Source of the DNA: Isoetes taiwanensis
Taxonomy: Eukaryota > Streptophyta > Lycopodiopsida > Isoetales > Isoetaceae
Length of the DNA stretch: 64,000 bases
NCBI GenBank assembly: GCA_021234155.1
Contig: JAJEKV010000095.1
Coordinates: 3,174,621 to 3,238,620, forward strand
Direction of reading: 5' to 3'
In this document: piece after piece, positions 9,127 to 64,000 of the stretch
How positions within the stretch are numbered: position 1 is the first letter of the stretch
How the letters are laid out: every line of letters begins with the position of its first letter
The notes under the pieces: model-generated
What the model was told of the DNA's origin: nothing
The model's database searches: none
What the model saw: the letters and a program-made list of their open reading frames with translations, nothing else
Made by a program: the position numbers and the translations under genes

Positions 9127-9226
9127 GTTTGATGGTTTGACAATCGGATATCGGCCAAAGATGTCGCCTTAGGGGCGGGGAGCTAATTTCTAAAGCGAGG
9201 AGCGTGCAAATGAGGGGGTCTACTTC

Positions 9227-9234
9227 TATTTATA
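9227..9234 (-). promoter_or_regulatory. TATA box of the H3-like gene, copy A
   Basis: TATAAATA on the minus strand about 101 bp upstream of the ATG at 9126. It aligns with the box at 59,438 in copy B, and the sequence just after it (GATGTAGA/GAAGTAGA then CCCACTCAT/CCCCCTCAT) is conserved. Confidence 0.7.
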
Positions 9235-9337
9235 ACTTAGTAAATTTTAGGTCAAAATTCAAGTTGCTCTATTTAACATGCTAAAGGCACCTATTTAATT
9301 AAAACTTACACTTATTTAGGACTTTTCCTACTTATTG

Positions 9338-9595
9338 GTCTCACGCAGGTGGCGCCATCTCAAAAACTAAAGTTTAGTTTTTTAGACCCGGTAGCGGTAT
9401 CGAATCTCCTAGTTACATGTAATTTAAAGTAATTTAAACATGCTATTCTAATTAATTCCTATCTTAGAACTAGCCTTACCACATTATTTTTCTCAAATTC
9501 ATCATGTTTGAGTGATCTTGGCTCGATGTCTCGCGGCTGGCGCCTAAGCTCAAGAACTAAAGTTTAGTTCTTTGACGGTAGCGACACGTGAACCA
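9338..9595 (-). repeat. Pair of palindromic modules upstream of the H3-like gene, copy A
   Basis: Modules at about 9338-9410 and 9525-9595, each with a central ACTAAAGTTTAGT palindrome and outer arms related to GTCTC and GGCGCC. They match the pair at 59,080-59,338 in copy B in order and spacing. Confidence 0.65.
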
Positions 9596-10954
9596 CTATT
9601 ACTGGCAAAGATTTTTTAGCTCATTCCTTTTTTTTTTTTTTTTTTTTTTTGTCTTATTAAGTTCAATTCCTTAAATATTACTAGCTTAGCATAAGCGACA
9701 AAAATGAGAAAAATTTTTCCACTTTCGGGAGGCTTGAGGATCCTATCAAGTTAGTACTCTTTGGGAGCATAATCGGTGCTTTGCTCTTGGTCTCAAGAAC
9801 ATAGCTCGATACCATTAATGACGTCCCCTACTTCATTATCACGATGCCGCGCATTATACAACGCGAGATTCATCCCCATACGATTGCCATACTGATATAG
9901 GGCCCTCCGCGAGATCTTTGTGATCATCACGGAATCCGCGGTGGGGAAGAATGAAGGGTCATTTTACCCGTCTCCTCGGGGCCTACCTAGCGGCGGGGCG
10001 TAAACATGCGTTAGTAACATAACATCATATATCCACCTCGAAGGGTGGTACATCAACATCTGCATAGACAAAGATCGGCACAATACAAAGGAAGTTCCTA
10101 CCCAAGGCTCGGACGGGGATGGGTGACAAGCTTAGGTCTCAAAGTTCATTTGAGAGGAGAATCATGACAATGGATTGGGCGGCATAAGAACATGGCATTG
10201 GGTTGTCCACTCCATCCGCCCCTCTGTACACACTTTGCAGAGTAGGTTGAAGAGTGTTGGGACTTTTGGCCTTAGCCCGCCGGGTGCATAGCCAAAGGGG
10301 CTACTCACGGTTTACATCTCCCGGGCCGATGGGGCGGTGGGGATCACTCCCACCGAGATCTACATGCTGACCCAAGGTGACTAGAGAGCCACTTTGCCCT
10401 TATTCGACTTAACCTTTGGAAGGTGAACTCCACCCCACGGTGTAGCCGAGCCCATGCCTTGCCCACACTTTGGCAAGCCATTGGAACCTAGTCACTCGAT
10501 CCCGGTAGACTTTACCGCGGTCGGTCAAGGGTCGAGGAACGAACACAGTTACGAGCGGTCTGGTCCCCTTCACCCCACAACCCGGTGGGGTTCTTGTACA
10601 GGCGAAATCTAGTAATGCACTAAGAGGGACTATCTAGGGCATCATCTACTAAGCTTCAAGTCTCTACCCCCTTCCCAATCTGGTGAGTTCACCGAGATTC
10701 ATAGTCCATCACATCATCATAGAACTAAAGAATAAGAACTAATCTATATCATACATAGAGTTAGGTTCTTTAGTTAAGTCAATCTCGGAATGCTTGGCTA
10801 CTAGGGGTGATTTAATAGGCTAAACCCTTTTGGTTGAAGGCTGGAATAAGGTTTAGGCTATTCAATCAACTAAATACCTAATCCACAGTTCCTCCTGCGA
10901 TTGACGCGTCCATGTCGCGGTTACGCCCGAGATCGCGGTCGGAAAGGAGATCGA

Positions 10955-28700: not shown

Positions 28701-31700
28701 CAGGGACCAAGTTCCGTGGCGAGAAGACCACCCAAACTCAAGAAGCGCCAAAGTAGCTCACTTCCATCACACTTTCGTAGTCAATTGGCCTAGGATGTGC
28801 ATGCGGGATCTTGTTGTGGTGGGCGTGAGTGTTTCCTTCTTTTTCGCCAAAAACCGGCCAGGTGTAACTTGCTCCCTAGGGTAATTTCGCCATTAGGACG
28901 ATTTGGCGGGGGTCTATTTGCCATTCGGAGCATCCCGGTGCGACGACAAAGCAGTCTGCGGTTTCTACAAGGCCGACATCGGGGCGCCAGCGGTTTTGAC
29001 AAGTTCTCGGGCCCGATCCGGAATCTTTTGGACCTTCGAAGAGGGGCCCACGAGCGGAGGATCAGCGGTCGGATAGGGGCCGGGGGCTCGGGAGGGTGGT
29101 CATTAAGCGTGCGACCGGGGGCATTTGCCGGGGAAGGCTGCCTGGGAACTTTTGGATCGCCTCACGGGGGTGGGACTCTCCCCTCTTGTGAGGGATCCGC
29201 AAGGTCGGCCTCGTTTGACTTGGGGAAGGGTGCGGCTCGGTGCATCGCAGCGGGCTGCCCGGCCGTTCTAATGCTAACCCTTTGACCTAGACCTTCTCAG
29301 AAAATTAGAAAATTGGGGCGTGTCTTTGGAGATGAATTAGGGATCGGCAAAAACGGAATTTATTTTACGTGCAATGCATTAATTGCGAATTCACGAATGT
29401 CTTGCCCTTTACCAAAAGCGCCCAGACTTCTACTTGCCACATCGGGGAGGAGGAAAGGCCCAAACTCCGCTCCGTCGGTTCCCCTTGCTCCGTATTCTCG
29501 GCCTGGCGCTTCTCGGCGGTCCCAAGTGCAGCGGACCGGGGACTCGGCCCCCAAAGCGTAAACCCTTCTAGAGCACGGCAGCCCACGGGGTTTCGTTTGG
29601 GAGGCCCCTCTCCATGTCATTTGGCGGGACCTTGCAGGTGTCTTGAAGTGGAGTTGGGGTGTTGGCGCCCGAGCCTTGGACCCTAAAATCCCTCGGGAGG
29701 TGCTTGCCCAAATTTCCTCTCCCCAAGGCCACAGGGGCCGGGGCCAGGCGACCTAAGCTCTCAGGAATCGATCGACTACGCCAATGGACTCGAGCGTCGA
29801 CATTGCCACAGGGACCAAGTTAGTGGCGGAAGACCACCCGAACTCCAAAAGCGCCAAAGTAGCTCACTTCCATCACACTCGTAGTCGATTGGCCTAGGAT
29901 GTGCATGCGGGGATCTTGTCGTGGAGGCGTGAGTGTTTCCTTCTTTTCGCAAAACCGGCCAGGTGTAACTTGCTCCCTAGGGTAATTTAGCCATTCGGAC
30001 GATTTGGCGAGGTCTATTGCCATTCGGGAGCATCCCGGTGCGAAACGACAAAGCAGTCATGCGGTTTCTACAAGGCGGAGACATCCGGGGCGCCAGCGGT
30101 TTGACAAGTTCTCGGGCCGATCTGGAATCTTTTGGACCTTCGAAGAGGGGCCTGAGCGGAGGATCAGCGGTGGGATAGGGGAGCAGGGCTCCGGGAGGTG
30201 GTCATTAGCGTCTGCGGCCGGGGGGCCCGGTGCCCGGGAAAGGGCTGCCTCGGGAACTTTTGGATCCAGCCTCACGGGGTGGGACTCTCCCCTCTTGTGA
30301 GGGATCCTGCAAGGTCTGGCCTCGTTTGACTTGGGGAAGGGTGCGGCTCGGTTGCCTACAGCGGGCTGCCCGGCCGTTCTAATGCTAACCCTTTGACCTA
30401 GACCTTCTCAGAAAATTCGAAAATTGGGGCGTGTCTTTGGAGATGAATTAGGGATCGCTGGCAAAACCGGAATTTATTTTCGTGCAATGCATTAATGCGA
30501 GAATTCACGAATGTCTTGCCCTTTGCAAAGCGCCCCAGACTTCTACTTGCCACGCCGGGAGGAGGAAAGGCCCAAACTCCGCTCCGTCGGTTCCCCTTGC
30601 TCGCGTATTATTCATTTCTTTGCTTCTCGGCGAGGTCCCAAGTGCAGCAGACGACGGGGACTCGACCCCCAAAGCGTAAACCCTTCTAGAGCACGGCAAC
30701 CCCCCGGGGTTTACGTTTGGGCTCCCTCTCCTTGTCGGTCGGTAGGGACCTTTTAGTGTCTTGAAGTGGAGTTGGGGTGTTGGCCTTGGTAGCGGACCCT
30801 AAAATCCCTCAGGAGGCTGCTTGCCCCAAATTTCCCTCTCCCCAAGGCCACAGGGGCCGGGCCAGGCGACCTCGGCTCTCAGGAATCGCGATCGACTCTG
30901 CCAATGGACTCGGAACATCGACATTGCCACGGGGACCAAGTTCGTGGGCGAAGACCACCGAACTCAAGAAGCCAAAGTAGCTCACTTCCATCACACTCGT
31001 AGTCAATTGGCTAGGATGTGCATGCGGGATCTTGTCGTGGGCGTGAGTGTTTCCTTCTTTCGCAGAAAACCGGTAGTGTAACTTGCTCCCTAGGGTAATT
31101 TTCGCCATTCGGACGATTTGGCGGGGTCTATTTGCCGATGGAAACATCCCGGTGCCCGAGCGACAAAAGCAGTCCGGTTTCTGCCGGAGGCATCGGGGGC
31201 CCAGCGGTTTGACAAGTTCTCGGACGATCTGGAATCTTTTGGACCTTCGAAGAGGGGCCTGAGCGGAGGATCAGCGGTCGGATAGGGGAGGCAGGGCTCG
31301 GGAGGTGGTCATTAGCGTCGCGACCAGGGGGCCAGCGGCCGCCGGGAAGGGCTGCCTCGGGAACTTTTGGATCCAGCCTCACGGGGTCAGGACTCTCCCC
31401 TCTTGTGAGGGATCCTGCAAAGGTCTGGCCTCGTTTGACTTGGGGAAGGGTGCCAGCTTCGGTTGCCTACCACAGCGGGCTGCCGGCCAGATTCTAATGC
31501 TAACCCTTTGACCCTAGACCTTCTCGAAAATTCCGAAAAATTGGGCCGTGTCTTTGGAGATGAATTAGGGATCGGTGGCAAAAATAGGAATTTATTTTCG
31601 TGCAATGCATTAATTGCGAATTCTGAATGTCTTGCCTTTACCAAAAGCCCCAGACTTCTACTTGCCACATCGGGAGGAGGAAAGGCCCAAACTCCGCTCC

Positions 31701-34022
31701 GTCGGTTCCCCTTGCTCGGTATTCTCGGCTGGCGCTTCTCGGCCCGGTCCCAAGTGCAGCAGACCGGGGACTTCGGCCCCCAAAGCGTAAACCCTTCTAG
31801 AGCACGGCAACCCACGGGGTTTCGTTTGAGGAGGCCCTCTCCTTGTCGGTCGGCCGGGACCTTGCGCCGTGTCTTGAAAGTGGAGTTGGGGTGTTGGCCG
31901 CCAGAGCGCGGACCCTAAAATCCCTCCGGGGCTGCTTGCCCCAAATTTCCTCTCCCAAGGCCACGGGGCGGGCCGGGCGACCTCGGCTCTCGGAATCGCG
32001 ATCGACTCGCCAATGGACTCAGAACATCGACATTGCCACGGGGACCAAGTTCGTGGCGAGGGAAGACCACCCGAACTCCAAGAAGCGCCAAAGTAGCTCA
32101 CTTCCATCACACTTTCGTAGTCAATTGGCCTAGGATGTGCATGCGGGATCTTGTCGTGGAGGGCGTGAGTGTTTCCTTCTTTCGCCAAAACCGGCCAGGT
32201 GTAACTTGCTCCCTAGGGTAATTTCGCCATTCCGGACGATTTGGCGGGGTCTATTTGCCATTAGAAGCATCCCGGTGCCCAACGACAAACAAGTCTGCGG
32301 TTTCTCTGAGGACATCGGGGGCCCGCGGTTTGACAAGTTCTCGGACGTCATCGGAATCTTTTGGACCTTCAGAAGAGGGGCCCGAGACGGAGGATCAGCG
32401 GTCCGGATAGGGGAACGGGGGCTCGGGGAGGGTGGTCATTAGCGTGCAGACCGGGGGGGCTGCCGAGGAAGGCTGCGCCTCGAGAACTTTTTGGATCAGC
32501 CTCACGGGGTGGGACTCTCCCCTCTTGTGAGGGATCCCCGCAAGGTCTGGCCTCGTTTGACTTGGGGAAGGGTGCCGGCTCGGTTGCCCTGCAGCGGGCT
32601 GCCCCGACCGGATTCTATGCTAACCCTTTGACCTAGACCTTCTCAGAAAATTCGAAAATTGGGCCGTGTCTTTGGAGATGAATTAGGGATCGGTGGCAAA
32701 AAGGAATTTATTTTAGGTGCAATGCATTAATTGCGAATTTCTGAATGTCTTGCCATCGCAAAAGCGCCCCAGGCTTCTACTTGCCACATCGGGGAGGAGG
32801 AAAGGCCCAAACTCCGCTCCGTCGGTTCCCCTTGCTCCGGTATTCTCCGACTCTTGCTTTCGGCCAGGTCCCAAGTGCAGCAGGACCGGGGACTCGGCCC
32901 CAAAAGCGTAAACCCTTCTAGAGCACGGCAGCCCACGGGGTTTCACGTTTGGAGAGCCCTCTCCTTGTCGGTCGTAGGGACCTTTAGGTGTCTTGAAGTG
33001 GAGTTGGGGTGTTGGCCTTGAGCTTGGACCCTAAAATCTCTCGGGAGGCTGCCCCAAATTTCCTCTCCCCAAGGCCACGAGGGGCCGGGCCAGGGCGACC
33101 TCGCTCTCGGGAATCGCGATCGACTCTCGCCAATGGACTCGAGAGCGTCGACATTGCCACAGGGACCAAGTTCGTGGCGAGGAAGACCACCCGAACTCCA
33201 AGAAAGCGCCAAAGTAGCTCACTTCCATCACACTTTCGTAGTCAATTGGCCTAGGATGTGCATGCGGGGATCTTGTCGTGGAGGCGTGAGTGTTTCCTTC
33301 TTTTCGCCAAAACCGGCCAGGTGTAACTTGCTCCCTAGGGTAATTTAAGCCATTCGGACGATTTGGCGGGGGTCTATTTGCCATTCAGGAGCATCCCGGT
33401 GCCGAGCGACAAAGCAGTCCCGGTTTCTACAAGGTAGACATCGGGGGCCCAGCGGTTTGACAAGTTCTCGGACCCGATCTGGAATCTTTTGGACCTTCGA
33501 AGGGGCCCGAGCGGAGGATCAGCGGTCGGATAGGGGCAGGGCTCGGGAGGGTGGTCATTAGCGTCGACGGGGAATTTGCCGGAAGGGCTGCCTCGGGAAC
33601 TTTTGGATCCGCCTCACGGGGTCGGACTCTCCCCTCTTGTGAGGGATCCCGCAAGGTCTGGCCTCGTTTGACTGGGGGAAGGGTGCCGGCTCGGTTGCCA
33701 CAGCGGGCTGCCCCGGCCGTTCTAATCTAACCCTTTGACCTAGACCTTCTCAGAAAATTCGAAAATTGGGCGTGTCTTTGGAGATGAATTAGGGATCGTG
33801 GCAAAAATCGGAATTTATTTTCGTGCAATGCATTAATTGCGAATTTCTGAATGTCTTGCCAGCGCCCCCGACTTCTACTTGCCACATCGGGGAGGAAAGG
33901 CCCAAACTCGCTCCGTCGGTTCCCCTTGCTCCGTATTCTCTCATTTGCTGCTTCTTGGCGAGTCCCAAGTGCAACGGACCGGGACTTCGCCCCCAAAGCG
34001 TAAACCCTTCTAGAGCACGGCA
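22738..34022. repeat. Tandem satellite array, unit about 1.11 kb, about 10 copies
   Basis: The landmark AACCCTTTGACCTAGACC recurs at about 22,783, 24,820, 25,929, 27,050, 28,164, 29,276, 30,389, 31,501, 32,622 and 33,729. Spacings are 1108-1121 bp except for the first. Every unit contains GGAATCTTTTGGACCTTCG, GTGCAATGCATTAATTGCGA and ACCCTTCTAGAGCACGGCA. The units are head to tail and highly similar. Most differences are small indels at C/G runs or at CTG/CAG sites. Open frames occur on both strands in every unit but drift between units, which argues against a coding function. The first unit is about 920 bp longer because of an internal triplication. The array lies wholly inside the CACTA-like interval. 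Confidence 0.95.
23040..24010. repeat. Internal tandem expansion of a 307-bp segment in the first satellite unit
   Basis: The segment from CGTAAACCCTTCTAGAGCAC through the GTCTTGAAGTGGAGTTGG region to the next CGTAAACCC occurs four times, at about 23,065, 23,371, 23,680 and 23,987, with a period near 307 bp. Other units carry it once. Confidence 0.88.
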
Positions 34023-34959
34023 ACAAATTAATTAGTGGCGGTCACATTCATATGGACTCATTATGGAGTGTGCGAAATTGAATATCTCGAACTTCGAAAT
34101 TCAAGGTGAGGCGTCGTTGAACCACGAAGGCGTGTCCAAAACCCTTAGCGATAATCTATGAAGAGGTCGCAACCATATATGAAGTTGTATGTGATCATGC
34201 GAGAGAATATGGCAAATCAAAGAAGCTCTTCTTGCGACTTTGCATGAATTTGTATGTTGGGCATGCCTTGTGTAGATTGTATGCGGAGAAGAGCAACTGG
34301 TGAGCCATATGTTTACCTTTACTCTGATCATGGTCGAAGTGATTGGCAAGCTTGATTTAGTATGAAAGTATGCAAGTGAAGCTCAATGGTGCACAAGTCC
34401 GGTTTATTAAAGTGGATAGATAAACAAGGATGGAGAGAAATATAAGTGGATAGATAAAGAAGGATAGATAAAATACATAAGTAATCATTGCCAACTAGTG
34501 CTCCATTATTATCGCTCCGGATGTGTTAGTTTCATTGGAAGCAATACCCAAGAATCATTGGCATCCGAGTTGCCTCCTCCCCATCTGTCATTTCCATTTG
34601 ATGCAATTCCCCAACTATCATTCTCACGATTCCTTGTTATACGTATCATTGTTACCAATAGCATCATGTTGATTTCCTCCCCATCGATATTCCACGAGTT
34701 TCAATGATGTTCAATGCTTTAAAATCTCGACTAAAAAGGGCCACGAGTTTATTCTATGCATTCTACCTCGGAAAAGATCTCTATCTTTGTGTAATGGTTT
34801 GATTCCTTTTATATGTAGTTTCTGAAGGAAGATGCAATGCATACTTATGCGGAGAGAGATGTTTTGCGAACCGTTTAACAAAGCTGTTTAAATCGGGGCG
34901 TTGGAGTTGTTAATCGGTGTATAGTTCCTCCCGTAATATAAATGATCGATTACTTGGCG

Positions 34960-43451: not shown

Positions 43452-43572
43452 TGATGTTTGATGGTTGGAAGAGCAAGATTAGCTTCGATCTCATTTCTCA
43501 CCCTATGGTGCAACGATTGCTCAGTTATCCTTATTGCGCCAAGAAAAAAATTAGAAGAGTTGAACCACAGGA

Positions 43573-43643
43573 TCCATTGGCCGAGAATCGAACTCAGGTC
43601 TGTACCGTGGCAGGGTACTATTCTACCACTAGACCACCAATGC
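43573..43643 (-). tRNA. tRNA-Gly (GCC)
   Basis: 71 nt. Anticodon loop CTGCCAC closed by GTACC/GGTAC. The D arm (GGTCTAGTGGTAGAA) and T arm (CTGAG TTCGATT CTCGG) are typical of plant tRNA-Gly(GCC). The first acceptor pair is mismatched (G1 with G72), so it may be a decaying copy. No intron. Confidence 0.82.
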
Positions 43644-44057
43644 ACAAGTAATACAAATGAATACCTTTTTAATTAACAAGCACATACAACCAACTCAATC
43701 AAATGCATCTCATAATCCAGTTCTCAAAAAAATATCGTGGTCGTACAATAAGGTGTAGGAATGGTTGTTCTTCTAATAAGTCCAAACAAATGATTATGCC
43801 AAGGCATAAAGCGACAAGATTTGCTTAATCACCGTGTTTTGCCATGCTTGAACTTGATATCATCAAAAATTGAAAGAATTTAAATGTTAATGAGTAACAA
43901 TGTCGAGCATTGGTGTGCCACTAATGGGGCTATGCATAAACCCTAGAATATTGCGTCAGTGGAAGAGTGCGTAGGGAATCTGAATGACAAACTCTAAATA
44001 TTAATCGAATGGACGTATGTGATAGGGACTATAAAATAATATGAAAAAGCTCCTACA

Positions 44058-44139
44058 CGTGGATGATACGATTCAAACCTATGCGAGCAAAGCCCACATG
44101 ATTTCTAGTCATGCCCAATAACCACTCTGGCACATCCAT
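44058..44139 (-). tRNA. tRNA-Ser (AGA), probably degraded
   Basis: 82 nt with a long variable arm and anticodon loop CTAGAAA (anticodon AGA). Position 1 is A against C72, and the B-box reads GGTTTGAATCG where GGTTCGAATCC is expected, so it is likely a pseudogene. Confidence 0.7.
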
Positions 44140-44396
44140 GACGGCATGTGGAATACTTCCGTTTCTTCTTAGATCATTGAAATATTTAGGAGGATAGGAT
44201 TTGGCTAGTCATTTGTTCTCTTTCATTGTGATGTTTGATGGTTGGAAGAACAAGATTAGCTTCGATCTCATTTCTCACACTATGGTGCAATCGATTGCTC
44301 AGTTATCCTTATGTCATTATCAACATGGTTTAATGCATTAAATCTTCTTTTTGGCTCTTGCGCCAAGAACAAAATTGGAAGAGTTGAACCACAGGA

Positions 44397-44467
44397 TGCA
44401 TTGGCCAAGAATCAAACTCGGGTCTGTACCGTGGCAGGGTACTATTCTACCACTAGACCACCAATGC
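44397..44467 (-). tRNA. tRNA-Gly (GCC), second copy
   Basis: 71 nt. The acceptor stem is fully paired (GCATTGG with CCAATGC) and the anticodon stem-loop is identical to the first copy. The T loop has TTTGATT in place of TTCGATT, which weakens the B-box. Confidence 0.8.
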
Positions 44468-44517
44468 ACAAGTAATACAAATGAATACCTTCTTCATTAA
44501 CAAGCACATACAACCAA

Positions 44518-44640
44518 CTCAATCAAATGCATCTCATAATCCAGTTCTCAAAAAATTATCGTGGTCGTACAATAAGGTCACCTTATTGTACGACCACGAT
44601 ATTTTTTTGCGAACTGGATTATGAGATGCATTTAATTGAG
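44518..44640. repeat. Near-perfect inverted repeat (61-bp arms, 1-bp centre)
   Basis: The left arm belongs to the duplicated block and is present in the first copy at about 43,692-43,752. The right arm is its reverse complement and is present only here. The centre is AAGGT-C-ACCTT at 44,579. This looks like a local fold-back duplication during replication or repair, or an assembly artefact. Confidence 0.92.
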
Positions 44641-44953
44641 CACCGTGCAGGAATGGTTGTTCTTCTAATAAGTCCAAACAAATGATTATGCCAAGGCATA
44701 AAGCGACAAGATTTGCTCAATCACCGTGTTTTTCCATGCTTGAACTTGATATCATAAAAAATTGAAAGAATTAACATGTGAATGAGTAACAATGTCGAGC
44801 ATTGGTGTGCCACTAATGGGGGCTATGCATAAACTCTAGAATATTGCGTCAGTGGAAGAGTGCGTGGGGAATATGAATGACAAACTCTAAATATTAATTG
44901 AATGGACGTATGTGATAGTACGGACTATAAAATAATATGAAAAAGCTCCTACA

Positions 44954-45035
44954 CGTGGATGATAGGATTCGAACCTATGCGAGCAAAGGCCACATAATTT
45001 CTAGTCATGCCCAATAACCACTCTGGCACATCCAC
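44954..45035 (-). tRNA. tRNA-Ser (AGA), second copy
   Basis: 82 nt. Paired acceptor stem (GTGGATG with CATCCAC), anticodon AGA, canonical A-box-like TGCCAGAGTGG and B-box GGTTCGAATCC. The variable arm is slightly altered. This is the better of the two serine tRNA copies. Confidence 0.85.
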
Positions 45036-47286: not shown

Positions 47287-48899
47287 GATCCTTACCACCC
47301 GCCTAGGAAATTGTTCCGGCAATTTTTAAGGGCTGCCAAAAGGCGATTTGATATTTTCAGTCAGAAATATCAAGTATGGAAGTCTGGAAACAGATTTGAG
47401 GTTTTTATTTTAAATTCAGTTTTCTAGTTCTGCAGGCGGTTACTACGAGGAAATACTAATTACGAAACTTTTGCCGATGATTATAGGATGAGGCCAGAAA
47501 AGATGACCATAATTACTGGATCAAAGAACTCAGGTTCTTTAAATATCATGAGTGTGGGGTCGATAGCCCTAATCTGGCAGTTCAAACAATAGTTGCTTGC
47601 ATCAGAAATAAGGAAATCCATGATTACATCACATTCAAGGAGACAAATCTAGTAGACAAGGCAAGATCTCCTATTACCTTTTTAGGTTTCAATGGTTGGT
47701 TTAAGCTGCTCCATACTATGAAGAAGAACAATTTTGAGTATACTAAATGCAAAGGCGCCATTCTGGAAATTTACAATGATATGAACAATATCTTGTACCA
47801 ACGAACCTGTCAAGAGGATGATATTGCCAGAAATTTCGTGATTGGCCTCACTGCACTTGAAGTAGGCAATGAAATCTATCCATCTTTTGATCCTACTGAT
47901 GATCTACCAAGCAATGATGATGAAACATGCCTTTTTTCTGAAAAGGATCTGATAGAACCTGATTTCTTCAATATACAGTCACAGTCACCTAACGTGGATA
48001 CTGCTGACAATGAACAACAGCATAATGTTGAGCAAGAGGAGGTCCCCAATCTTACTTTAGGAAACTCATCTTGTTTTCCTATCATCATTGAGCAATCTGT
48101 GGAAGGACTGGCAGCTGCGTACGACCACGCCATTTGGAAAAGTCAAAATTTCGGAGCTTTAGCGCCTATTAATTTGGAGACATGGATTGCACTTGCAGGT
48201 ATAACTAAAGATGAGATCATGAATGCTAAGGCCACTGCCTCCAGACTTGAAAAAACATTTTCCTATATTAACCCTGATGTTAATTTTGATATGTCCTTCT
48301 TTGATGAAGTCTGCATTAAAGATCCAGCTATCCAGGTTTGCCAAAAAGGCCACATGGCCTATCCCAATGAAGAAAGGAATGATTTCTTTTTGAAAAGGAT
48401 GTGGCGCACTCATTGCCCATACTTTAAATGTAAGTGTTTCAAGAACAAAAAATCCACATGCCATTGTGGCATTATTTGGCTGGATCAGGGTATATGGTTT
48501 TTATTAAACCACTTGGATGCTGTTTTTGAAGACTCCACACCAATCATGAAAATGGTGGCAATATATAAGCTCTTGAATAAGGTATTGAAACCGGCTGTTA
48601 TTGGTTATATTTCATACCTTGAAGTACGAAAAGTCATGATCAATATGACTCTCAAATATGCTGAAGATGCTGATGCCAATCTGAAATGTTTATATGGCAA
48701 CAACAGAATGGCTGATATAGTGGAGAAGACTATTAAACCTCTTTCCTTCTTGCACGACAATGCTGAGCAGAATGGAAAAAATCAGGGCTTCAAAAAGCAG
48801 AATGTTTACAAAGCCAAATCTAGCAAGCCTGCACCTAAGTTTACACCTAAGTTGGCTCCAAGAATTCATCGGCCGATCCCCTGCATTGACCAAATGTAA
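47287..48899 (+). CDS. Retroelement ORF1 (unknown, Cys-rich motif), multi-exon
   Basis: The long frame from the ATG at 47,718 has 393 codons, but coding potential extends upstream. The same frame reads EARKDDHNYWIKELRFFKYH from about 47,485, just after a TATAG acceptor. An earlier exon-like segment (PPRKLFRQFLRAAKRRFD) starts near 47,290. The protein has an acidic region around 47,890-48,050. A cluster CPYFKCKCFKNK..TCHCG at about 48,410-48,470 has the spacing of a metal-binding motif. The C-terminus is lysine-rich (KPAPKFTPKLAP). No family was recognised. The frame ends in TAA at 48,897, but a donor GTAAC at about 48,893 could splice it to the reverse-transcriptase exon at 49,193. Confidence 0.55.
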
Positions 48900-49192
48900 C
48901 AATATCCAGAACAAGAAACCTACCGCTATAGGTGCTGGAAACATGGAGGAAATGAACACAATCACTAAAGGTGGGAGCAAGATCATTACACTTGTGGAAA
49001 ATACTCCAGCTAATATTGAAATTGTGGAGGATTCTCAGGAATAATGTACTACAGTATAGTACATGACATTTGTCAATCGACTTTTTCTTGCAATTTCAAT
49101 ACAAAGACTATAGTTTTTTTTGAAACATGTATATAAAGTGATAATTAAAATTGCTGATTGCTTGTATGTTGCTAATAATCTGCATTGTGTAG

Positions 49193-51252
49193 GTACAGTC
49201 CAGACTCATTACTAAAGATGCAAACGGCAAAAGACATCTGAAAAATATTAAGGATACAAATGACAGAAAAATTGTGCATTTCACTTTCATATCCAAGGCA
49301 GTGGAAAAGATAGATATCAGAAAAATCTTCACATTAATACTAGAAGAGACATTACAGGAAAAAGGCACAGAATTGGTGGAGAACACCACGTTCGCATGGA
49401 GATATATTGAGCAGATAAAAGATAAGGTTTATAGACCCTTTATTATTTTTGCTGAAGATAATGAAGCTAGGTGTCCATGCCTAAATCCCAACCTGCAAAA
49501 ATACATAGACCCAAAGATTGGGCATGTGAGAACAACAGACTTGGGAATTATCCACTGCATGAAATTAAGAAAGGCATTTGCCAAAGGTCTAAACCACATC
49601 CCAGATTGTGGCCTCAGCATACAAAGTTTTCGTGAAGAATTTCTCAAACTTTGCAAACAATTTTGGGATGTCCACAAATATGAAACCATGGACCTGACAG
49701 ACATAGATACCAGTAATATTACTGAGATGCTACTGCAATATGCCCATAATGAAATTGTACAGCTAAAGGAAAGTCTACCTAACAGAAGGTTTTTGTGGGA
49801 TGACAAACAAGTCAAAAAGAACTTGGAATGGTTAACACATAACCTATTCATATCTGGTTTGGACAAAGCCAATAACAATCCGACCTTTATATGCCAAAAA
49901 CATATCCGTGAGATGGCAAGGGCAAGGCTTGAAGGGCCCGACTTTGAGTTAACTCAATGTACTTCTGAGCAAATAAAGGATGTATGCAGCAAGTTTATAC
50001 AAGAATCCTTGGATGTAGAACATGACAAAAATGGTAAATTACCGTACCTAATGGCTTGTTACAAAGCACATAAAGCGGAATACAGGTGGTTAACAAATGC
50101 AAGTGACTCTATCTTCTCATATGGGGCACGATGGATTACTGCAGTATTAAATGATATTATTGTGATCTGGCCTCAACTATGCCTAAGGCAAACTGCCCCT
50201 TACAGGTTGTTTAACAGAAACAAGATCAACGCATCATGGATGGTGAGCTCCTCATATGAGGTAATTCTGAATCTCCCATACAAAATAAGCAGTGTTTTCT
50301 CAGCAGATATAACAAGATGCTACGAAAATATACCAATATTTGGAGAAGATGGAATCATAGAAATCATGAATGATGTCATTGAACTAGCATGGGAACATAT
50401 GAGAAAAGACCAGCACCTTCTGTACATGCTGATAAAAGACAAGGCAGGAAAATTTGAAATAAAATGGGAAAGACACTTGAAAAAAGACTTGAACAAAACA
50501 TGCTAGACTGTGGTTGAAAAGGAAAAATTTAAAACTATAAACGAATGGTTATTATCACACTGCTTCCTACAATCAGGTACTGATATATGGCGTCAGAAGA
50601 AAGGTATCCCTATGGGATTTTCGTGTAGCCCAGCATGGTGTAATTTATACCTTGCTTGGCACGAATTAAGGTTTATGCTGAAACTTGCTCACAGCGGTAG
50701 ATTCAATGATATTAAGAAATTTGAAACAGCTGCAAGGTACATTGATGACCTCAGTATACTGAATGCAAATAACATTGGAGAGTTCTTTGATAAGCAGGCA
50801 GAGACTACTGTATACAACATGCATCATCTTGGCATAAAAGATGAAACTGAATATGAAACAGATGGAGATGAAACGCATGGTTACAGCATTAACTTCCTTA
50901 ATGTCAACATAAGGGTGATGGACAGAAATAGAGGTCTCTTTGAGATTTCAAGATATGATAAAAGAAACAAACTGCCTTTTGAGGTATACAAGTTTGTAAA
51001 AGCAGATAGTTGTAGACCATACTGGCATGCACTAAAAGTGATAATTTCGCAAATTCTACCATATGTTTACGCACATTCGATCACGCTAAAGCTGCTGAAG
51101 ATATACTTAACCTAATTGATACCTTTGCTAAGAATGGTTTCGGCAAGAAAGAATTATGCAGAACAGTCCTGAGATATCTACAGGAAGAACAATTTTCTGG
51201 GGTTCTATACAACATTGGGGATATGATACAAACTCTGAAGAGATTGATGTAA
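49193..51252 (+). CDS. Reverse transcriptase of Penelope-like type (one in-frame TAG, one frameshift)
   Basis: Copies RNA into DNA for the retroelement. The exon opens after TTGTGTAG at 49,185-49,192. RT motif A is DITRCYENIP (about 50,310), motif B is GIPMGFSCSPAW (about 50,605), motif C is ARYIDDLSIL with the catalytic Asp pair (about 50,735). The following motif is INFLNVNI (about 50,890), which resembles the FLD step of Penelope RTs. A TAG at 50,504-50,506 lies between motifs A and B in an otherwise open frame. A one-base shift near 51,060 moves the end into the frame reading RTFDHAKAAEDILNLIDTF..., which stops at 51,250. No endonuclease domain follows. Whether the TAG and the shift are real mutations or assembly errors cannot be told. 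Other RT groups remain possible. Confidence 0.7.
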
Positions 51253-57320: not shown

Positions 57321-59050
57321 TGTGACGTTCAAAGACAAGATACGCTCCGTGATTTACATTGTATCGCCACGCCACGCCAGATTATCGCCACCCCGATTGA
57401 CGGTACGCCAACGGATAGCTGTGTAAGTAGCCCTAGGGGGCAACTTGCTAGGAGTGTTCATATATTATTAATGTGCACATGTGCACATTAATGAGGGCAC
57501 ACCTTTCCATGTTGGCATATTTTGCCACCTAGCCACTAAAGGCAAGTGGGGCCTTTCCAATTATCCCACATGCCAAATTGGGTAATTGGAAACCCTAGCC
57601 TAAACCCCCATGTCTATTTAGGGTAGGAAAACCCTAGCTTGCTAGTTTTTCGTCCTTAGGGTTTTAGAGCTCGGTTTTGGCTGCCCTGTGAGCCAAAACC
57701 GCCCCCGTGACGCTGCCTTAAGCGAATTGCGCCATCGGTTTCCACAATCCGATCAATTCGGCAGATGGTTGAACTCGGTCGAGGAGCCACTCAAGGATCA
57801 GTATTTGGTCAATTTAATAGCTTAAACCGCCTTCTAGTCATAGAATCAAGAGGTTTAGACTATTAAATTGCCCATAGTAGTTATCTAGATCTTAGATCTG
57901 GGACACTAACTAAAGAACCTAACTCTATGATTGGATCTAGTTCTTTAGTTCTTCCGTGATATATTTGGATGATGTATTTTTCGTGAACTCCTTGTATTGG
58001 GAAGGGGGTAGAGGCCCTAAAGCTTGTAGTTGATGCTCCTAGAGTAGCCTCTCTAGCACAATGTAGATTCGGCTGGTGGTACAAGAGCCACACCGGGTTG
58101 TGGGTGAAGGGGCAGACTGGCTAAAAAGGAGGTTCATGTCCCCGACTCTTGAACGATCCCCCGGTGTGTGTAAAGCCACCGGGATCATTGTGACTAGGTC
58201 TAATGGCTTACCACCGCGGGTAAGGCATGGGCTCGACACCCGTGAAGTGGTGTACACTTTCCGCTGGGTTGGTCGAATCACGGGCAAAGGGCCCTCTAGT
58301 CACCTTGAGTTAGCATGCAGATCTCCTGAGGAGTGATCCCTACCGCCCCATCGAACCGGGAGGATGAGACCCGTGAATAGCCCTTCGGCTATGCATCCGC
58401 TGGCTACTGGCCAGTCCCAACACTTTTCAGCCTTACCGCAAAGTGTGCATGGGAGGGGCGGATGGAGTGGACAACCCTATGCCATGTTCTTATGCCGCCC
58501 AAATCCATTGCCATGAATTCTGCCTCAAGAACGAACTGCGAGACCCAAGCCGCCACCATCCATTGAGTCCGAGCCTTGGGTAGGATCCCCCTATGTGATG
58601 TGCCGATCTTTGTCTATGCAGATATGAGGGGACCATCCTTCGAGATGGTCACAGGATGTTGATGTATGTGCTAATTGACATGTATGTTTACGCCCGCAGC
58701 CTAGGTAGGCCCCGAGGGAGACGGGTAGAATGACACCTTCACTCTCCCCACCGAGACTCGTTACGGGTGCGCAAATGATATGTGGAGGGCCCCCAGATCA
58801 GCATGGAGCTGGTGTGGGGAAGAACTTCCTGCTTGTATACGGTGAGTGCACCGTGATAATGAGTAGGGGACGCCACGGTGGTATCGAGCAATGTTCTTGG
58901 AGACCAAGAGCAAAGCACCGACCATGTTCCCAAAGAGTACTAACTTGATAGGATCCTCAAGCCTCGAAAAGTGGGAAAAATTTTTTTCTCACCTTTGTAG
59001 TTATGCTAAGCTAGTAACAATTAAGTGAATTGGAATTTAACAAGATTAAA
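57321..59050 (+). other. H3 element 5' region and leader, no recognised protein
   Basis: It includes AAACCCTAG-rich sequence typical of plant LTRs (57,590-57,665) and a conserved leader shared with copy A (about 57,800-58,980). Open frames here are not conserved between the copies. No clear LTR end (CA) was located. Confidence 0.5.
57467..57492. repeat. Perfect 26-bp palindrome
   Basis: ATTAATGTGCACA followed directly by its reverse complement. It lies about 150 bp into copy B, in the possible promoter part of an LTR. It is not evident in copy A. Confidence 0.95.
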
Positions 59051-59079: not shown

Positions 59080-59148
59080 GGTCTCACACAATTACCGGGT
59101 CATAAAACTAACTTTTTGTTTTGAAGCGAGGCGCAAGCTGTGAGACAT
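59080..59148 (+). repeat. Palindromic module 1, upstream of the H3-like gene
   Basis: Outer arms GTCTCACA and TGTGAGAC flank AAAACTAAC and GCGAGGCGCAAGC. It is one of four related modules in copy B. It sits about 290 bp before the TATA box. Confidence 0.7.
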
Positions 59149-59269
59149 CGAGTCAAGAACACCAAAACATGATGAATTTGAGATAAATAATGTGGTAAGG
59201 CTAATTCTAAGATAGGAATTAGTTAGAATAGCATGTTTTAATTACCTAAAACCCTAGAATGTATGAGGA

Positions 59270-59338
59270 TCTCTCACATCGCTACTGGTCGCAAAACTAA
59301 ACATTAGTATTGGAACGAGGCGCAAGCCGCGGAGACCA
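59270..59338 (+). repeat. Palindromic module 2, upstream of the H3-like gene
   Basis: Related to module 1 (TCTCACATCGC, AAAACTAAACATTAG, ACGAGGCGCAAGC, GGAGACC). It lies about 100 bp before the TATA box. Confidence 0.65.
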
Positions 59339-59437
59339 ATGGGTAGAAAAAGTCTGAAATAAGTATAAGTTTTAGATAAATTGGTGCCTTAGCATGTTAA
59401 ATGAGCAACTTGAGTCTTGACCTAAAATTCCCCAAGC

Positions 59438-59445
59438 TATAAATA
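59438..59445 (+). promoter_or_regulatory. TATA box of the H3-like gene
   Basis: TATAAATA, 113 bp before the ATG. Position and sequence are conserved with copy A (9227-9234) and with the promoter of the second gene. Confidence 0.78.
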
Positions 59446-59550
59446 GATGTAGAACCCACTCATTTTTTTTCGGTCCAAGCCCTAGAAATCTGGCTCTCCC
59501 CAATTTAGGCGATCTTTCTACGCTTTTATCCGATTGACGATCCGTAAAAC

Positions 59551-60788
59551 ATGGCCCGAACCAAACAGACCGCAAGGAAGCGTCGCCCAGGCGAAACCAC
59601 CAGCGCCACTGAGACAGAGATCATTCGGAAGATGCTTCGTGAGAGGCTCGCAAGAGGGGATCGTTCGCCTTCGGACGAAGAGCAAGACACCTCTGATTTG
59701 ATCGATGTCTTCAACCGCCAGTGGAGGACGAGGCCACATCACCAAACTCCATGGACGCATTTTAGACGAGGGAGGTGTATGAAGAAATAGAGCGGGAGAT
59801 CCGGCAGCCAGAACAAGCGAGATGAGCAAGTGGCCGGGTTTGGAGCCCGGAGGTAGCGTGAACCTTAGAAGATTCATCAGGAAGTACGAGCGCCGGCAGA
59901 AGAGAAGGGAGGACAAAAAGAGGAAAAGGAAGGAGGAGGAACAAAAGACAGCAGAAGAAAAGAAGGAAGCAAAAGGGAAGTTCGTGGCTGGCATAAGGAG
60001 AACAAAGGACTGCCCGCCAAGGAAGAGGCCGAACCCCAACATTATCATCAAGGAGCGGCAACCTGACGAACCCCCAAACCCTTCCGACGACTCTTCTGAT
60101 GGGGACTTCAACCCTAACGCTGCAGGTGGAAGCTCTTCCAAGAATCCAGGTGACGAGCAAGAAGTACCTCGAGCACCGCAAGACCGAAAGCAACCCCAAA
60201 GAAGACCAAGTGCAGAAGCCCCCTGAATACCCGGCATGGGATAGAAAGAAGCAACCACGACCTGCCCGGGAAGCCTACGTCACCGACAGGGTGAAGATTT
60301 ATGAGAGGAAGATGAGAGAGCACGAGGCCTACATGAAGAAATGGGAGGCCTATAACAAATATTATGAGGAAAACAGGGTTAAGTTCATCGAGGAGGGCGA
60401 CCAACGGCAAAGAAACCCTAAGGCCGCCACCACCGGCCCAAAGGTTCCCAAGCCGCCACCCGTGAAGAAAGCGGATAGGAAGGAGGTGGAGAGAAGAGCG
60501 TTAAGGGGAGATTAGACACTTCCAACAAGCTTTCGGTCTCCTAATCCCCGCGGCCCCTCCGGTTGGTGCGTGAAGTTATGCGTGCCTATAGAACAGACTT
60601 TAGAGTCACGGGCATTTAGAAATTTGCTGGCAATGCAAGAGGCGGTTGAGGCAAAGATAGTGCAACATTTTGAAGATTCAACAGCCTGCACTATCCACGC
60701 ATGGCGGGTAACCTTAACGCGACAAGACATGAGTCTTATGACCGCATTAAGGGGAGAAGCCTTTAGAAACTTTTTTTGTTGTAAATAA
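59551..60788 (+). CDS. Histone H3-like protein with canonical H3 tail, long charged linker and H3 fold (frames broken)
   Basis: The first ten codons give MARTKQTARK, identical to the N-terminus of histone H3 (K4 and K9 included). The next residues are RRPGE, so Ser10 is absent. A linker of about 300 residues follows in three frames. It is rich in Lys, Arg and Glu, with coiled-coil-like stretches (RREDKKRKRKEEEQK; YERKMREHEAYMKKWEAYNK). The last about 90 codons follow the H3 fold across small shifts: RRALR, EIRHFQQAFGLLIP, RLVREVMRAYRTDF, LAMQEAVEAKIVQHFEDST, and CTIHAWRVTLTRQDM. These match ALREIR, LLIRKLPFQRLVREIAQDF, LALQEAAEAYLVGLFEDTN and CAIHAKRVTIMPKDI of ordinary H3. Five or so frame changes would have to be assembly errors, introns or mutations. 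It could act as a chromatin protein or a histone-tail mimic. That is inference. Confidence 0.78.
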
Positions 60789-60914
60789 TTAAAAAAATTT
60801 TGTAATATAGAGCAATTTTGTGTACCTTGATGACATAAACTTGAGTAATTAGAGCAAATTAATAAGTTTTAGCTTTTATTTCAGGTGAAATAGGACATTT
60901 GGGAGCCGAGACAT

Positions 60915-60987
60915 GATGTCTCCACATTTCACGCGCCTCGTCATAAAACAAAAGTTAGGATTGAAGCGAGGCAAAGCTGTGAGACCT
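60915..60987 (+). repeat. Palindromic module 3, upstream of the second gene
   Basis: GATGTCTCCACA, CGCGCCTCGTC, AAAACAAAAGTTAGGATTG, AAGCGAGGC and TGTGAGACC, pairing GCCTCG with CGAGGC and the outer GTCTC with GAGAC. It also lies just 3' of the H3-like gene. Confidence 0.68.
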
Positions 60988-61115
60988 CGCCCCAAACTTG
61001 ACCAAAACAGCTCCAAATTGACCAAATAAGGGGTCGATTCTCGCCTAATTTGGTGAGCCCATCACCCTTACACCATTAGTTTACCCAAATTGGACACCTT
61101 TAATGAAATGGGACT

Positions 61116-61183
61116 GATGTCTCATACTCGCCGCCGTGAAAACAAAAAGTTAGGATTGAAGCGAGGCGCAAGCTGTGAGACCT
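61116..61183 (+). repeat. Palindromic module 4, upstream of the second gene
   Basis: Near-identical to module 3 in its right half (AAAAGTTAGGATTGAAGCGA, then GGCGCAAGCTGTGAGACCTC). It lies about 190 bp before the second TATA box. Confidence 0.7.
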
Positions 61184-61371
61184 CTTACCAATTCTTCACC
61201 AGGACTTGTCAAAGTCACCTTCAACCTACTGCATAGCATCTTTTAGGTAACCTAGCCTTGTTCAAGCATCTCCTATAGTCCTCAAACTCCTATTTTGACC
61301 TCAGATAAGTTAGAATTACCCAATCCTAGGAAATTTCCAAGTCATCCAAAAATTAGGGTTTCCCCCTTTTC

Positions 61372-61379
61372 TATAAATA
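61372..61379 (+). promoter_or_regulatory. TATA box of the second gene
   Basis: TATAAATA, 122 bp before the ATG at 61,494. The same box and spacing are found in copy A and before the H3-like gene, so both genes appear to have matching independent promoters. Confidence 0.78.
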
Positions 61380-61493
61380 GACCCGTCACTTCTCACATAG
61401 CACCCTGCAAATCTGCTCCTGCCCTTCTAGCCGATTTCCTAACTCCCTGAGGCGCTCTTGCAACCATTTGTTACCTTCTTCTGCAATTAATCA

Positions 61494-63051
61494 ATGGCAA
61501 CTTCTGATTTCCAGAGATGGTACAGCGCCAGCGCTCATGCTGCTGAGGCCGACGTCGACCAAATCTTCCAGATTTTCAGGAAGGAGGTAGACGTCCAAGC
61601 AACCTTGCACGCGACCCCAGCTTATAGTAGAGTCTTGACTGAGTTCCAAGCTAGGGTAGAACCAGCGCTAGTGCAACTCCCTCCTTGTATAGGATATTTT
61701 GTTCCTAGACAGTCCCTGCAGGCAGCATTAGACGATGTCCCGAACATCGCCAAATACCTCACAAACAAAGCGCACCGCACACCTGAGCCAATGGTCCTAA
61801 CTGTCAACAGGACCAAGTACTTTCTTTCAACACCGCCTCGGGCAATCTTTCTCACCCAATCGCGTCGCCGAGAACATTGTGGGGGAAACCTCTATTCCCC
61901 CCATGGACGTGGATCCATTAGCCGTAGCAGCAGAACAACGGCTCCTCACACAGTATGAACAGGAGCAGGAAGGGAAGGAAGAAGACTCGGATGAACAGGA
62001 ATCCGAGGAGGAGGAAGACGATGTTGAGCTCGACCCAGCAGAGGAGCAGCGACAAGCAGAGCGGGAGTGGCAAGACTTCGAAAGAAGCCGGCAGACTCTC
62101 AGAGTCGCGCCACCCCTCGGGTTAGGCATCACAAGCCTGGCTCCCATTATCGTCGAAGGTGAGGAGTTTCTACTCCCTGGCGACATTCAAAACCTCCCCG
62201 GAGTGTGGAAAAGGGAATACCGACCTGAAGAGTTGCCGCACCAACTCGAAGAACAGACTTGGACGACTTCATCGTCTCGAGGAGTCCCGACTTCCCCTCC
62301 AAGTAAGGGAAGCCGACACTTACACGGGAGAGTTTACCTCCGACATCCAAGCCTACAGCAACATCAGGCAGATCATGGAGGCAGACAAGGCTGAGAACAA
62401 GCTACCGACGGAGGAAGAGTTCCTTGCTCTCCAGGAACAGATGGGGATCCGTTATGCGACCTCAAACATCCTAACGCAAGCTCGGCCCGCTAACCTCCCG
62501 GGATAGGACAGCTTAATTCGACCTCGAGAGGGCTTCAAAGAACATCAAGGACTACAGGGGAGCTCACACCACGGTGGAGGTTGATGATTTCGGAAGCAGA
62601 CACAGAGCTGGATACCGAGTGGCCGAGGACCCGTCTCGCAACGACAGGTCATTACGCTATTACCTGCCATTGCTGATGGATGGAAGAATAGCGGTTATCC
62701 ACCGCAAGTTCACCCCCGTGAGGCGAGGAAGGAGTATCGCTGCTGATTGCACTCTCAGGATTCGGCCGGCATGCACGGCTACCCCTTAACACCGAGTATG
62801 CAATCCTGGTGAAAAGAGCGGTAGCACTCGACGCCTTCGACTTCGCCATACCTTACAAAGCGGCAAAAGTAAGACTGGCCGCTGACAGCAGCCTTACACC
62901 TCCCACCTTGAGAATAGAAGATTTAGCAAGAGCATTACAGGTGGATCTCCAGCCAATGTCCTTAGGAACTTGGGCCATTCAAAGGGGAACAGCCCAAGTG
63001 AAAAAGTTCTTGGAGGATAATCCATCTTACCAGGCATCACCGTATGATTAG
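61494..63051 (+). CDS. Second protein of the H3 element, function unknown (about 510 codons, frames broken)
   Basis: Starts MATSDFQRWYS. An N-terminal part of about 120 residues (KEVDVQATLHATPAYSR, LPPCIGYFVPRQSLQAAL) is conserved with copy A at the DNA level. One frameshift near 61,840 leads to an acidic region at 61,960-62,070 (EEDSDEQESEEEEDD), then GEEFLLPGDIQNLPGVW. Further shifts join EADTYTGEFTSDIQAYSN (about 62,310), YYLPLLMDGRIAVIHRKFTP (about 62,660) and a C-terminal part with DAFDFAIPYKAAKVRLA, ending at TAG (63,049). The continuity of coding sense across shifts suggests one original protein. No domain was recognised. The acidic block might bind basic histone-like partners such as the neighbouring protein, but that is speculation. 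A structural (capsid-like) role is equally possible. Confidence 0.55.
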
Positions 63052-63408
63052 CGGTAGTTGCAAGTTCTTGTATTAGTGTAATATAAAATATAAATATAAC
63101 ATTCTCTTGCACTATAAATGTTTTGTTGATACATTTTGTGTCCCCTCAACCATGCCAACAAACATAAATAATGCAAGAAAGCAAGGAAAACTAACCATGT
63201 AGATATGAACCACTTGTGTATGCAAGCTAGGAGGCCCGAGCGCCAGAGAACGACAACCGAGGGAACTTACAGGGGAACAGAGCCCGCCTGTGCCACGCCG
63301 ACGCAAGGAACCCGCTTGAAGAGTTTGGACAAATGACTCCGAAGAAGAAATATCGCAAATGAGGACGGACCTCCTCGAACAGATAAAGTTTGCCTAGCCG
63401 CACAAGCT
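63052..63408. other. Gap between second gene and Gag-like region
   Basis: Starts with an AT-rich tract (AATATAAAATATAAATATAA) after the second gene's stop, which may hold its 3' end signal. No TATA box plus module pair like those of the first two genes was found before the Gag-like region. Confidence 0.45.
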
Positions 63409-64000
63409 GTGAGCAGGTTGGTGGGTAACGCCAACCGCCGCAAAGCATCAGCTCGGAGAACAGGTAGAGACAGGAAGAGGAGCAAGAGAGGAAGGTCCCC
63501 AGCTTGGACTCCTCCGACTCAAGCTCTCCGATTCAGACCGATTCCGAGGAAGAAGAAGAGCGTAACCAAGTCCGAAAGGCATCTAAAGGCAAAGAGGAAC
63601 CACCCGAGGGACGACAAAGGGACACAAGAACCTCGACTACGGAAGAAAGTAGACTCTGATTGGGAAATGTTTGGAAGGCCAGGAAGCTCGAGCAATTCTC
63701 AAAGCAGAACAGGTCGCATGGAAGCGGAGGCTTGGCTTGACGAGATGAGCCGAACACGGCAATGCCTATGGTATGAAGGATAAGGATAAAGGCAGGGTGG
63801 CAACAAATAACTGAAGGGAGCAAAGACGATTTGGTGGAAGGGCTATGCCAAGGCTCATGGCTTGCTGGGGATGCTTGCGGTGTTCAAGAAGTTTGCTAAA
63901 GCCTTCTGCCGCCATTACGCCCAAGAGAGCACAAGTCCAAGATGATGCGCCAGCTTCTGTGTTGCAAGAAGGCAACAAGTCAAGATGCAAATACAATGAG
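63409..64000 (+). pseudogene. Gag-like region of a Ty3/gypsy retrotransposon (partial, frames broken)
   Basis: The N-terminal part is rich in Arg, Ser and acidic residues (SDSEEEEE-like stretches in one frame). From about 63,705 it reads RMEAEAWLDEMSR, then in another frame LKGAKTIWWKGYAKAHG (about 63,813), and KKFAKAFCRHYAQES (about 63,890). This fits the retrotransposon Gag pattern: AE.WL..M, then L.G.A..WW, then W..F...F...Y. It runs off the window, so protease and polymerase cannot be seen. It may be the gag of H3 element copy B or of a neighbouring element. Confidence 0.62.

Follow-up and report, generated by a model that had tools for sequence, protein, structure and literature searches.

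The 64-kb stretch of the Isoetes taiwanensis genome that was analysed, called the window here, contains a Ty3/gypsy LTR retrotransposon in two copies, both decayed. The element bears a histone H3-like ORF1, and its order is LTR, primer site, ORF1, ORF2 and gag-pol. The features mapped in the window are as follows.

57321–58877, plus strand: 5′ LTR of copy 1, which begins TGTGACGTTC, the same start as that of the LTRs in L062 and L063 (contig C1064)
58879–58890, plus strand: primer-binding-site region, TGGTATCGAGC, common to both window copies
59085–59340, plus strand: two imperfect palindromes of ~75 bp, 189 bp apart, upstream of the ORF1 promoter and present in copy 2 too
59438–59446, plus strand: TATAAATAG, 113 bp 5′ of the ORF1 ATG
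59551–60788, plus strand: ORF1 for the H3-like protein, frame-broken here, with full-length relatives in L046, L052, L054, L060 and L061
59551–59580, plus strand: MARTKQTARK codons (H3 tail tip), from the translated frame
60504–60785, plus strand: H3 fold region in three frames (Pfam PF00125)
60910–61184, plus strand: second palindrome pair, 195 bp apart, before the ORF2 promoter
61372–61380, plus strand: TATAAATAG, 122 bp 5′ of the ORF2 ATG
61494–63051, plus strand: ORF2, frame-broken, with an acidic stretch and with strong codon constraint between the window copies in its first 91 codons
63660–63996, plus strand: gag region continuing past the window end (tblastn with the gag of L028, E 1.2e-10)
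6848–10884, minus strand: copy 2 with part of the LTR, leader, ORF1 (~9126–7780) and the start of ORF2 (7124–6848), 71–74% identical to copy 1
5–3116, minus strand: pol region of the same element kind, 75.6% identical to L063 4775–7976 and probably the remainder of copy 2

The original prediction for this locus was that a transposable element encodes a histone H3-related protein, and translation bore out that the frame at 59551 opens with MARTKQTARK. The H3 motifs expected at the C-terminal end were found in order in copy 1, where they are split over three frames (GEIRHFQQAFGLLIPAAP, RLVREVMRAYRTDFRVTG and FRNLLAMQEAVEAKIVQHFEDSTACTIHAWRVTLTRQDMSLMTALRGEAF) because the window copy is frame-broken. 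The last piece of the fold alone (60615–60785) matched the Pfam Histone profile PF00125 at 2.8e-8, exceeding the gathering cut-off, and H3 chains of the PDB at 8.9e-9, and the match to PF00125 was 1.5e-13 when the three pieces were joined. Furthermore, five aligned window-type folds span the core-histone profile, and ORF1 of L028 matched PF00125 at 3.2e-42; the helices follow the H3-type order. Chance resemblance to H3 was ruled out by the Pfam matches and the open relatives. The tail and the fold lie in a single stop-free frame of 421 residues in L046 and 403 residues in L052, and the frames of L054, L060 and L061 are likewise uninterrupted between MARTKQTARK and the fold's C-terminal end, the five full-length copies spanning 403–436 residues. 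The tail and the fold are therefore one gene and not separate genes, in agreement with the single unit that had been proposed. The window copy itself is frame-broken and did not hold up as the source of the protein; the open frames sit elsewhere in the genome. The layout of ORF1 consists of ten H3 residues, ~300 charged, proline-rich residues and a final 90 residues that form the H3 fold; the tail of L052 contains 69 K/R and 64 D/E in 304 residues, which is near neutral overall. The feature is almost certainly ORF1 of a Ty3/gypsy LTR retrotransposon that encodes an H3 tip, a long tail and an H3 fold.

The copies were searched in the window's own assembly, which holds 1.658 Gb in 1,110 contigs. 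The histone profile gave 8,705 loose candidates, 150 of which were scored and were all past the cut-off. The top 15 of these 150 resemble the host's own H3 genes (8 were read), and 55 of the 150 H3-fold loci lie in stop-free frames of at least 300 residues by hand count. When 20 loci selected for long frames (L018–L037) were fetched, in every one of them a frame of 331–494 residues closes, or nearly closes, with the H3 fold, and their N-terminal parts were of several kinds. A MARTK start was seen in one of these 20 loci of other types (L033, MARTKGTKSY) and a MARTKQTARK start in none. By eye, an inner TGGK resembling the surroundings of H3 K14 was noted in 11 of the 20. The search with the last fold piece gave 6,058 candidates, and the best match besides the piece itself was 89% identical among the 150 that were scored. 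With the tail piece, 150 of 10,550 matches were scored, all at E ≤2.6e-28, and 24 of these lie in stop-free frames of at least 380 residues (hand count), not all of which enter the fold. From the fold and tail matches, 7 and 9 stretches, respectively, mostly selected for open frames, were fetched; the window type accounts for 15 of these 16, and L051 is of another type. Apart from the five full-length copies, the frames of L048 and L050 lack the start and continue up to the fold's end, L047 begins later, the end is cut or altered in L053, L056, L058 and L059, L049 is broken, and L057 is without a tail-to-fold frame in the scripted reading. On contig C907, window-type copies were placed at 2.4, 5.0, 8.7, 14.1, 23.9, 48.1 and 50.7 Mb, and because they are spread along the contig in this way, there was no sign of centromere targeting.

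The identity of the element was established mainly from its relatives. The element of L052 has LTRs of ~1.57 kb that start with TG and end with CA, both beginning TGTGACGTTC, and the 5-bp target duplication TTGTT flanks it on both sides; the paired LTRs and the target duplication were checked in this one relative, and the 3′ LTR of the window copy lies outside the window. The LTR of L062 is 93.3% identical to that of L063 and 90.6% identical to that of L064; with gaps left out, 31 substitutions were counted over 864 aligned columns of the LTR pieces and 43 over 778. The copy-1 LTR, whose 3′ boundary was placed through homology to L064, is 90.2% identical to the LTRs of the relative on contig C1064, counted from 57320 on. 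The primer site TGGTATCAGAGC was found in L062 and, exactly, ahead of ORF1 in 14 of the 20 loci of other types. Where the window copies read TGGTATCGAGC, other copies read TGGTATCAGAGC. L063 aligns to 60848–63995 of the window at 88%, and its Pfam matches past the cut-offs come in the order PF03732 (1.3e-15), PF08284, PF00078, PF17919, PF17921 and integrase C-terminal domains. In the element of L052, the gag, protease, reverse transcriptase, RNase H and integrase domains come after ORF1 and ORF2, and this gag-pol is broken because its domains sit in several frames. The downstream ORFs of five of the 20 long-frame loci were also run against Pfam, and gag and protease were past the cut-offs in L028 and L037, gag in L033, protease in L020, and RNase H and the integrase zinc domain in L021, where the integrase core rve was narrowly below its cut-off (30.9 vs 32.6 bits). 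In copy 1, gag is the part of gag-pol that falls inside the window, whose final 340 bp matched the gag of L028. These results confirmed the transposable element of the original prediction through gag-pol in the unit and through LTRs and a target duplication in a related copy. The hAT features of fungal H3-like (H3L) elements, namely a transposase and terminal inverted repeats, were not found, and the unit has LTRs and gag-pol instead. In addition, a chromodomain (PF00385, 5.9e-12) was found in one relative, the element of L052, in the frame adjoining the integrase end; by eye, two of the three methyl-lysine cage residues are presumably missing from its piece YLVKWKHLPVEDATW.

A single TATA box ahead of the unit had been noted, and TATAAATAG does occur at 59438, 113 bp upstream of the ORF1 start codon. 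The corresponding sites of copy 2 are at 9234 and 7238 on the minus strand. This motif occurs five times in the 64 kb against about one occurrence expected by chance, and four of the five sites sit 108–122 bp ahead of the ATGs of ORF1 or ORF2, in both copies. Similarly, TATAAATA was found 109–113 bp 5′ of the ATG in all four window-type loci with that stretch fetched, which are four of the seven having an in-frame ATG. The positions and conservation of these motifs show a predicted core promoter belonging to ORF1 itself. Palindrome pairs, imperfect and of ~75 bp, precede each gene of the element; those of copy 2 are near 9570, 9380, 7681 and 7478 (minus strand) with the core AAACTAAACTTTAGTTT, and the spacing of 189–203 bp within pairs is close to the nucleosome repeat length. 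ORF2 contains the acidic run EEDSDEQESEEEEDDVELD (61879–62391), and acidic runs are a feature of histone chaperones. The Pfam search gave no match above the cut-off for the pieces of ORF2 or for ten further ORFs of the window.

The selection acting on ORF1 was evaluated from the copies. The tip region is present in 14 of the 15 window-type stretches, and MARTKQTARK is exact in 11 of these 14; the tip of L055 differs in the start codon only (IARTKQTARK), and those of L049 and L050 are disrupted by indels. In the window, the tip is exact in copy 1 and broken in copy 2. Among seven copies picked for an exact tip, six of the ten tip codons vary, always synonymously, and codon 11, which corresponds to H3 S10, reads T, R, A or P; the predicted exact H3 tail thus held for ten residues and did not extend beyond them. 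For the first ten codons of the five full-length copies, also picked for an exact tip, pS was 0.533 and pN was 0. Comparison of dN/dS across the copies, which had been suggested along with the original prediction, gave purifying selection, with a median of 0.062 in the fold of the five full-length window-type copies and of 0.182 over their tail outside the tip. When the element types were measured side by side, the fold median was 0.035 for the window type (4 rows) and 0.04 each for type A (9 rows), type B (3 rows) and type C (2 rows). The N-part medians were 0.165 for the window type and 0.12, 0.10 and 0.16 for types A, B and C. Out-of-frame starts affect two of the four window-type rows, and some pairs of type A drop out because their dS is saturated. 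Furthermore, copies 1 and 2 of the window are separated in ORF1 by 67 codon differences that are synonymous and 194 that are not; the synonymous share, 0.257, compares with 0.139 in substitution-preserving shuffles (reached by 0 of 2,000). The share was 0.21 vs 0.127 for the fold part alone (p 0.019) and 0.644 vs 0.229 for the first 91 codons of ORF2, and no synonymous excess was found in three non-coding frames compared between the window copies. As judged from these codon substitutions, purifying selection keeps the tail tip and the fold in the intact copies. A tip and a core selected in this manner suggest that this genomic parasite produces a chromatin part of its own.

The kind of H3 from which the fold descends was examined next to host H3 and CENH3. 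The window-type fold is 57–58% identical to host H3, and 29 folds of the other element types are 80–88% identical to it. In a 46-row tree, a branch with 98/95 support separates the window-type folds and four folds of CENH3 from the 37 others; the CENH3 rows are all from angiosperms, three of them were entered by hand, and host CENH3 is not among them. A topology joining the window type to the other element types was rejected by the AU test (p 0.025). Among 20 columns that are diagnostic, 8 show the CENH3 residue in the window type, 3 the H3 residue and 9 another one; the corresponding counts for the other element types are 2, 16 and 2. The window type resembles CENH3 in LLIPxAPFxRLVRE, EALLAxQEAAE and RVTLMRxDM, and it is unlike CENH3 in its much longer tail and the complete canonical-type ARTKQTARK tip. 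A CENH3-like origin of the window-type fold is probable. The similarity to CENH3 could also have come from convergence, long-branch attraction or an early-diverging H3, the fold being derived from a canonical H3 shared with the other types, and we regard this as possible, at odds clearly below even. It agrees with the 46-row tree being unrooted, with the window type on a long branch and not nested inside CENH3, and with the CENH3 loop-1 tryptophan/tyrosine and the GG near the C-end, which are absent in the window type (V and K in columns 39 and 86). Likewise, the AU test against the window type grouped with the database family described below gave 0.029 when both window copies were included and 0.056 when one was, and canonical and CENH3 profiles scored 75.1 vs 73.2 bits on the fold of copy 1 and 27.7 vs 32.5 bits on that of copy 2, scores of broken copies that do not separate canonical H3 from CENH3. 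The 98/95 split, the rejection at p 0.025 and the diagnostic columns, however, argue against it. The length of loop 1 was rejected as a sign of CENH3, the open copies having the canonical length. Host CENH3 was not found among the 150 scored genome matches, in which H3 genes and element H3 ranked first. The proposal that a host H3 was captured and its tail expanded stands in so far as the tail is ~300 residues longer than that of H3, but the fold groups on the CENH3 side and not with ordinary host H3.

A family of proteins from ENA contigs (P0002–P0133) has the same layout, namely MARTKQTARK, 230–300 residues and a canonical H3 fold, and the middle part of the P0002 family gave 1,363 matches at E 0.001, of which 120 are listed. 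Among 85 long fetched members starting with MA, 80 retain K4, 81 retain K9 and 4 retain S10. S10 is mostly replaced by D or N, and where R2 or R8 is lost, C, Q, H or W mostly takes its place, a pattern to be expected from methylated CpG decay. Common descent of the window tail and the tail of this family was not supported, the hhalign probability being 1.7% and that of five shuffles 0.1–0.2%. Since the two families share the layout without detectable homology of the tails, the solution may have arisen more than once. Against this genome, P0002 gave mostly fold-only matches and a few longer partial ones. The tail region 230–350 had no relative in the protein database, and the viral contigs held no relatives for P0002, the start of ORF2, alignment A2 or the tail piece. 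The ColabFold model of the P0002 family reached a pLDDT of 43, too poor for use. In prokaryote contigs, nine loci (L001–L009) with H3-like coding sequence were observed, all in metagenome bins, and these are probably contaminating eukaryote sequence.

We propose that the ORF1 protein enters host nucleosomes and that its long tail tethers or shields the element, and the conserved sequence features lead us to give this reading a probability of roughly 0.6. The protein would be produced from its own internal TATA promoter and go into the nucleus, where its histone fold would pair with H4 and the protein would be incorporated in host nucleosomes as a long-tailed, CENH3-like H3 variant. The long tail would serve as a tether or handle that takes the integration complex of the element to chromatin, or would mark or shield new copies, and the ARTKQTARK tip would be open to the readers and writers of H3K4 and H3K9. 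We infer the pairing with H4 and the entry into nucleosomes because the fold is kept; the pairing is predicted as likely only, because the window-type fold is just 57–58% identical to host H3. Taken by itself, entry into nucleosomes has a slightly better than even chance, and a tether or shield role of the tail is a tentative assignment with a chance somewhat short of even. A wider model, in which a lineage of LTR retrotransposons encodes its own H3 variants, several of them canonical-like and one CENH3-like, that would be built into host nucleosomes, give the chromatin or the target sites of the element an identity of their own and be read by the element's own chromodomain, is doubtful. Its part in which the chromodomain reads the element's own tail is weak because the cage residues seem to be missing and the chromodomain lies in a different frame than the integrase end.

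No other part of the protein is kept as strictly as the tip (pN 0 at pS 0.533; exact in 11 of 14 loci), as would be expected if the protein were bound or modified by the host H3K4 and H3K9 machinery and so spared the chromatin of the element, the fold merely carrying the tip. Phosphorylation of S10 displaces K9 readers, and the loss of S10, seen in the window family and, mostly as D or N, in the database family of unrelated tail, would remove this displacement. A pure peptide decoy would not need the fold, however, which is strongly conserved too, and the 20 loci of other types all have the fold, yet a single MARTK start and no MARTKQTARK; we consider a decoy role unlikely. Still less probable is that the protein condenses the RNA or DNA of the element in the virus-like particle with no role in chromatin. 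The highly charged tail and the position of ORF1 upstream of gag in the same element would suit such packaging, but the tail is close to charge-neutral overall, neither the conserved ARTKQTARK tip nor the H3 fold is necessary for it, and the gag-protease ORF already has a zinc-knuckle match, below the cut-off.

The window copies are broken, and in the available parts of the reports on fungi, capture of H3 genes by hAT elements and decay of the copies in some species are known (PMC6710886, PMC3538342), which would be consistent with ORF1 being a passive fragment of a captured host gene without function, as in transduplication. This is scarcely credible because of the synonymous excess, the low dN/dS (0.035–0.06 in the fold) and the kept tip, which changes synonymously; the conserved promoter of its own and the retention of an H3 by several element types also speak against it. 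Nucleosome entry with a tethering or shielding tail remains the reading that we prefer.

In the portions of the literature available to us, the closest precedent is the H3-like gene carried by fungal hAT elements. All 26 copies of the hAT H3L of Pyrenophora tritici-repentis are described as having tail insertions and as agreeing fully with neither H3 nor CenH3 (PMC3538342), and captured H3 in hAT transposons is described from Pseudocercospora and relatives (PMC6710886). The resemblance lies in a transposable element with a histone H3-like gene (PMC3538342, PMC6710886). As far as those excerpts go, the fungal elements are DNA transposons whose copies number from tens to hundreds and in some species have been inactivated by RIP, whereas the Isoetes case is one of a plant Ty3/gypsy element with a tail extension of ~300 residues, of several element types with an H3, and of measured purifying selection. 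Plant chromoviruses including CRM share with it the Ty3/gypsy gag-pol, the chromodomain after the integrase and a primer site of the TGGTATCAGAGC type; in the sections available, they read chromatin through the integrase domain and no histone gene is mentioned (PMC3059260, PMC6317226, PMC3350952), unlike the Isoetes element, which also encodes a histone. Extra ORFs are described as common in plant LTR retrotransposons, heterogeneous and mostly unexplained, and they resemble ORF1 in lying upstream of gag (the part of PMC6317226 at hand), but in ORF1 the fold is identified and the ten residues of a histone tail tip are conserved. The available passages of the Isoetes genome reports describe Gypsy elements and do not mention a histone gene for them (PMC8566536, PMC10541799).

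The search of open-licence PMC literature found no retrotransposon lineage with a selected histone gene. Viruses encode histones, such as the bracovirus H4 with its extended tail and the histones of giant viruses; these are like the present case in that a parasite genome has a host-like histone, and unlike it in the histone and in the kind of parasite. If the wider model were true, a genomic parasite would write part of the host chromatin with its own histone and read it with its own chromodomain. A selected retrotransposon histone would amount to a parasite intervening in nucleosome composition, beyond marks, and would reveal whether CENH3-like histones are among the genes that selfish DNA can carry, which bears on centromere conflict. 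It would also make testable whether type II chromodomains recognise an element-encoded histone; for those of plant retrotransposons, the partner is given as not identified in the parts of PMC6317226 and PMC3350952 at our disposal.

Elsewhere in the window, a tandem array of GC-rich units of ~1.1 kb, ~87% alike between units, spans 22738–34024, and four alternating tRNA-Gly (gcc) and tRNA-Ser (aga) genes lie within 1.5 kb at 43570–45035 on the minus strand. The long ORFs at 47718–51115, the last of which has a weak reverse-transcriptase match (PF00078, below the cut-off), are possibly a Penelope-like element.
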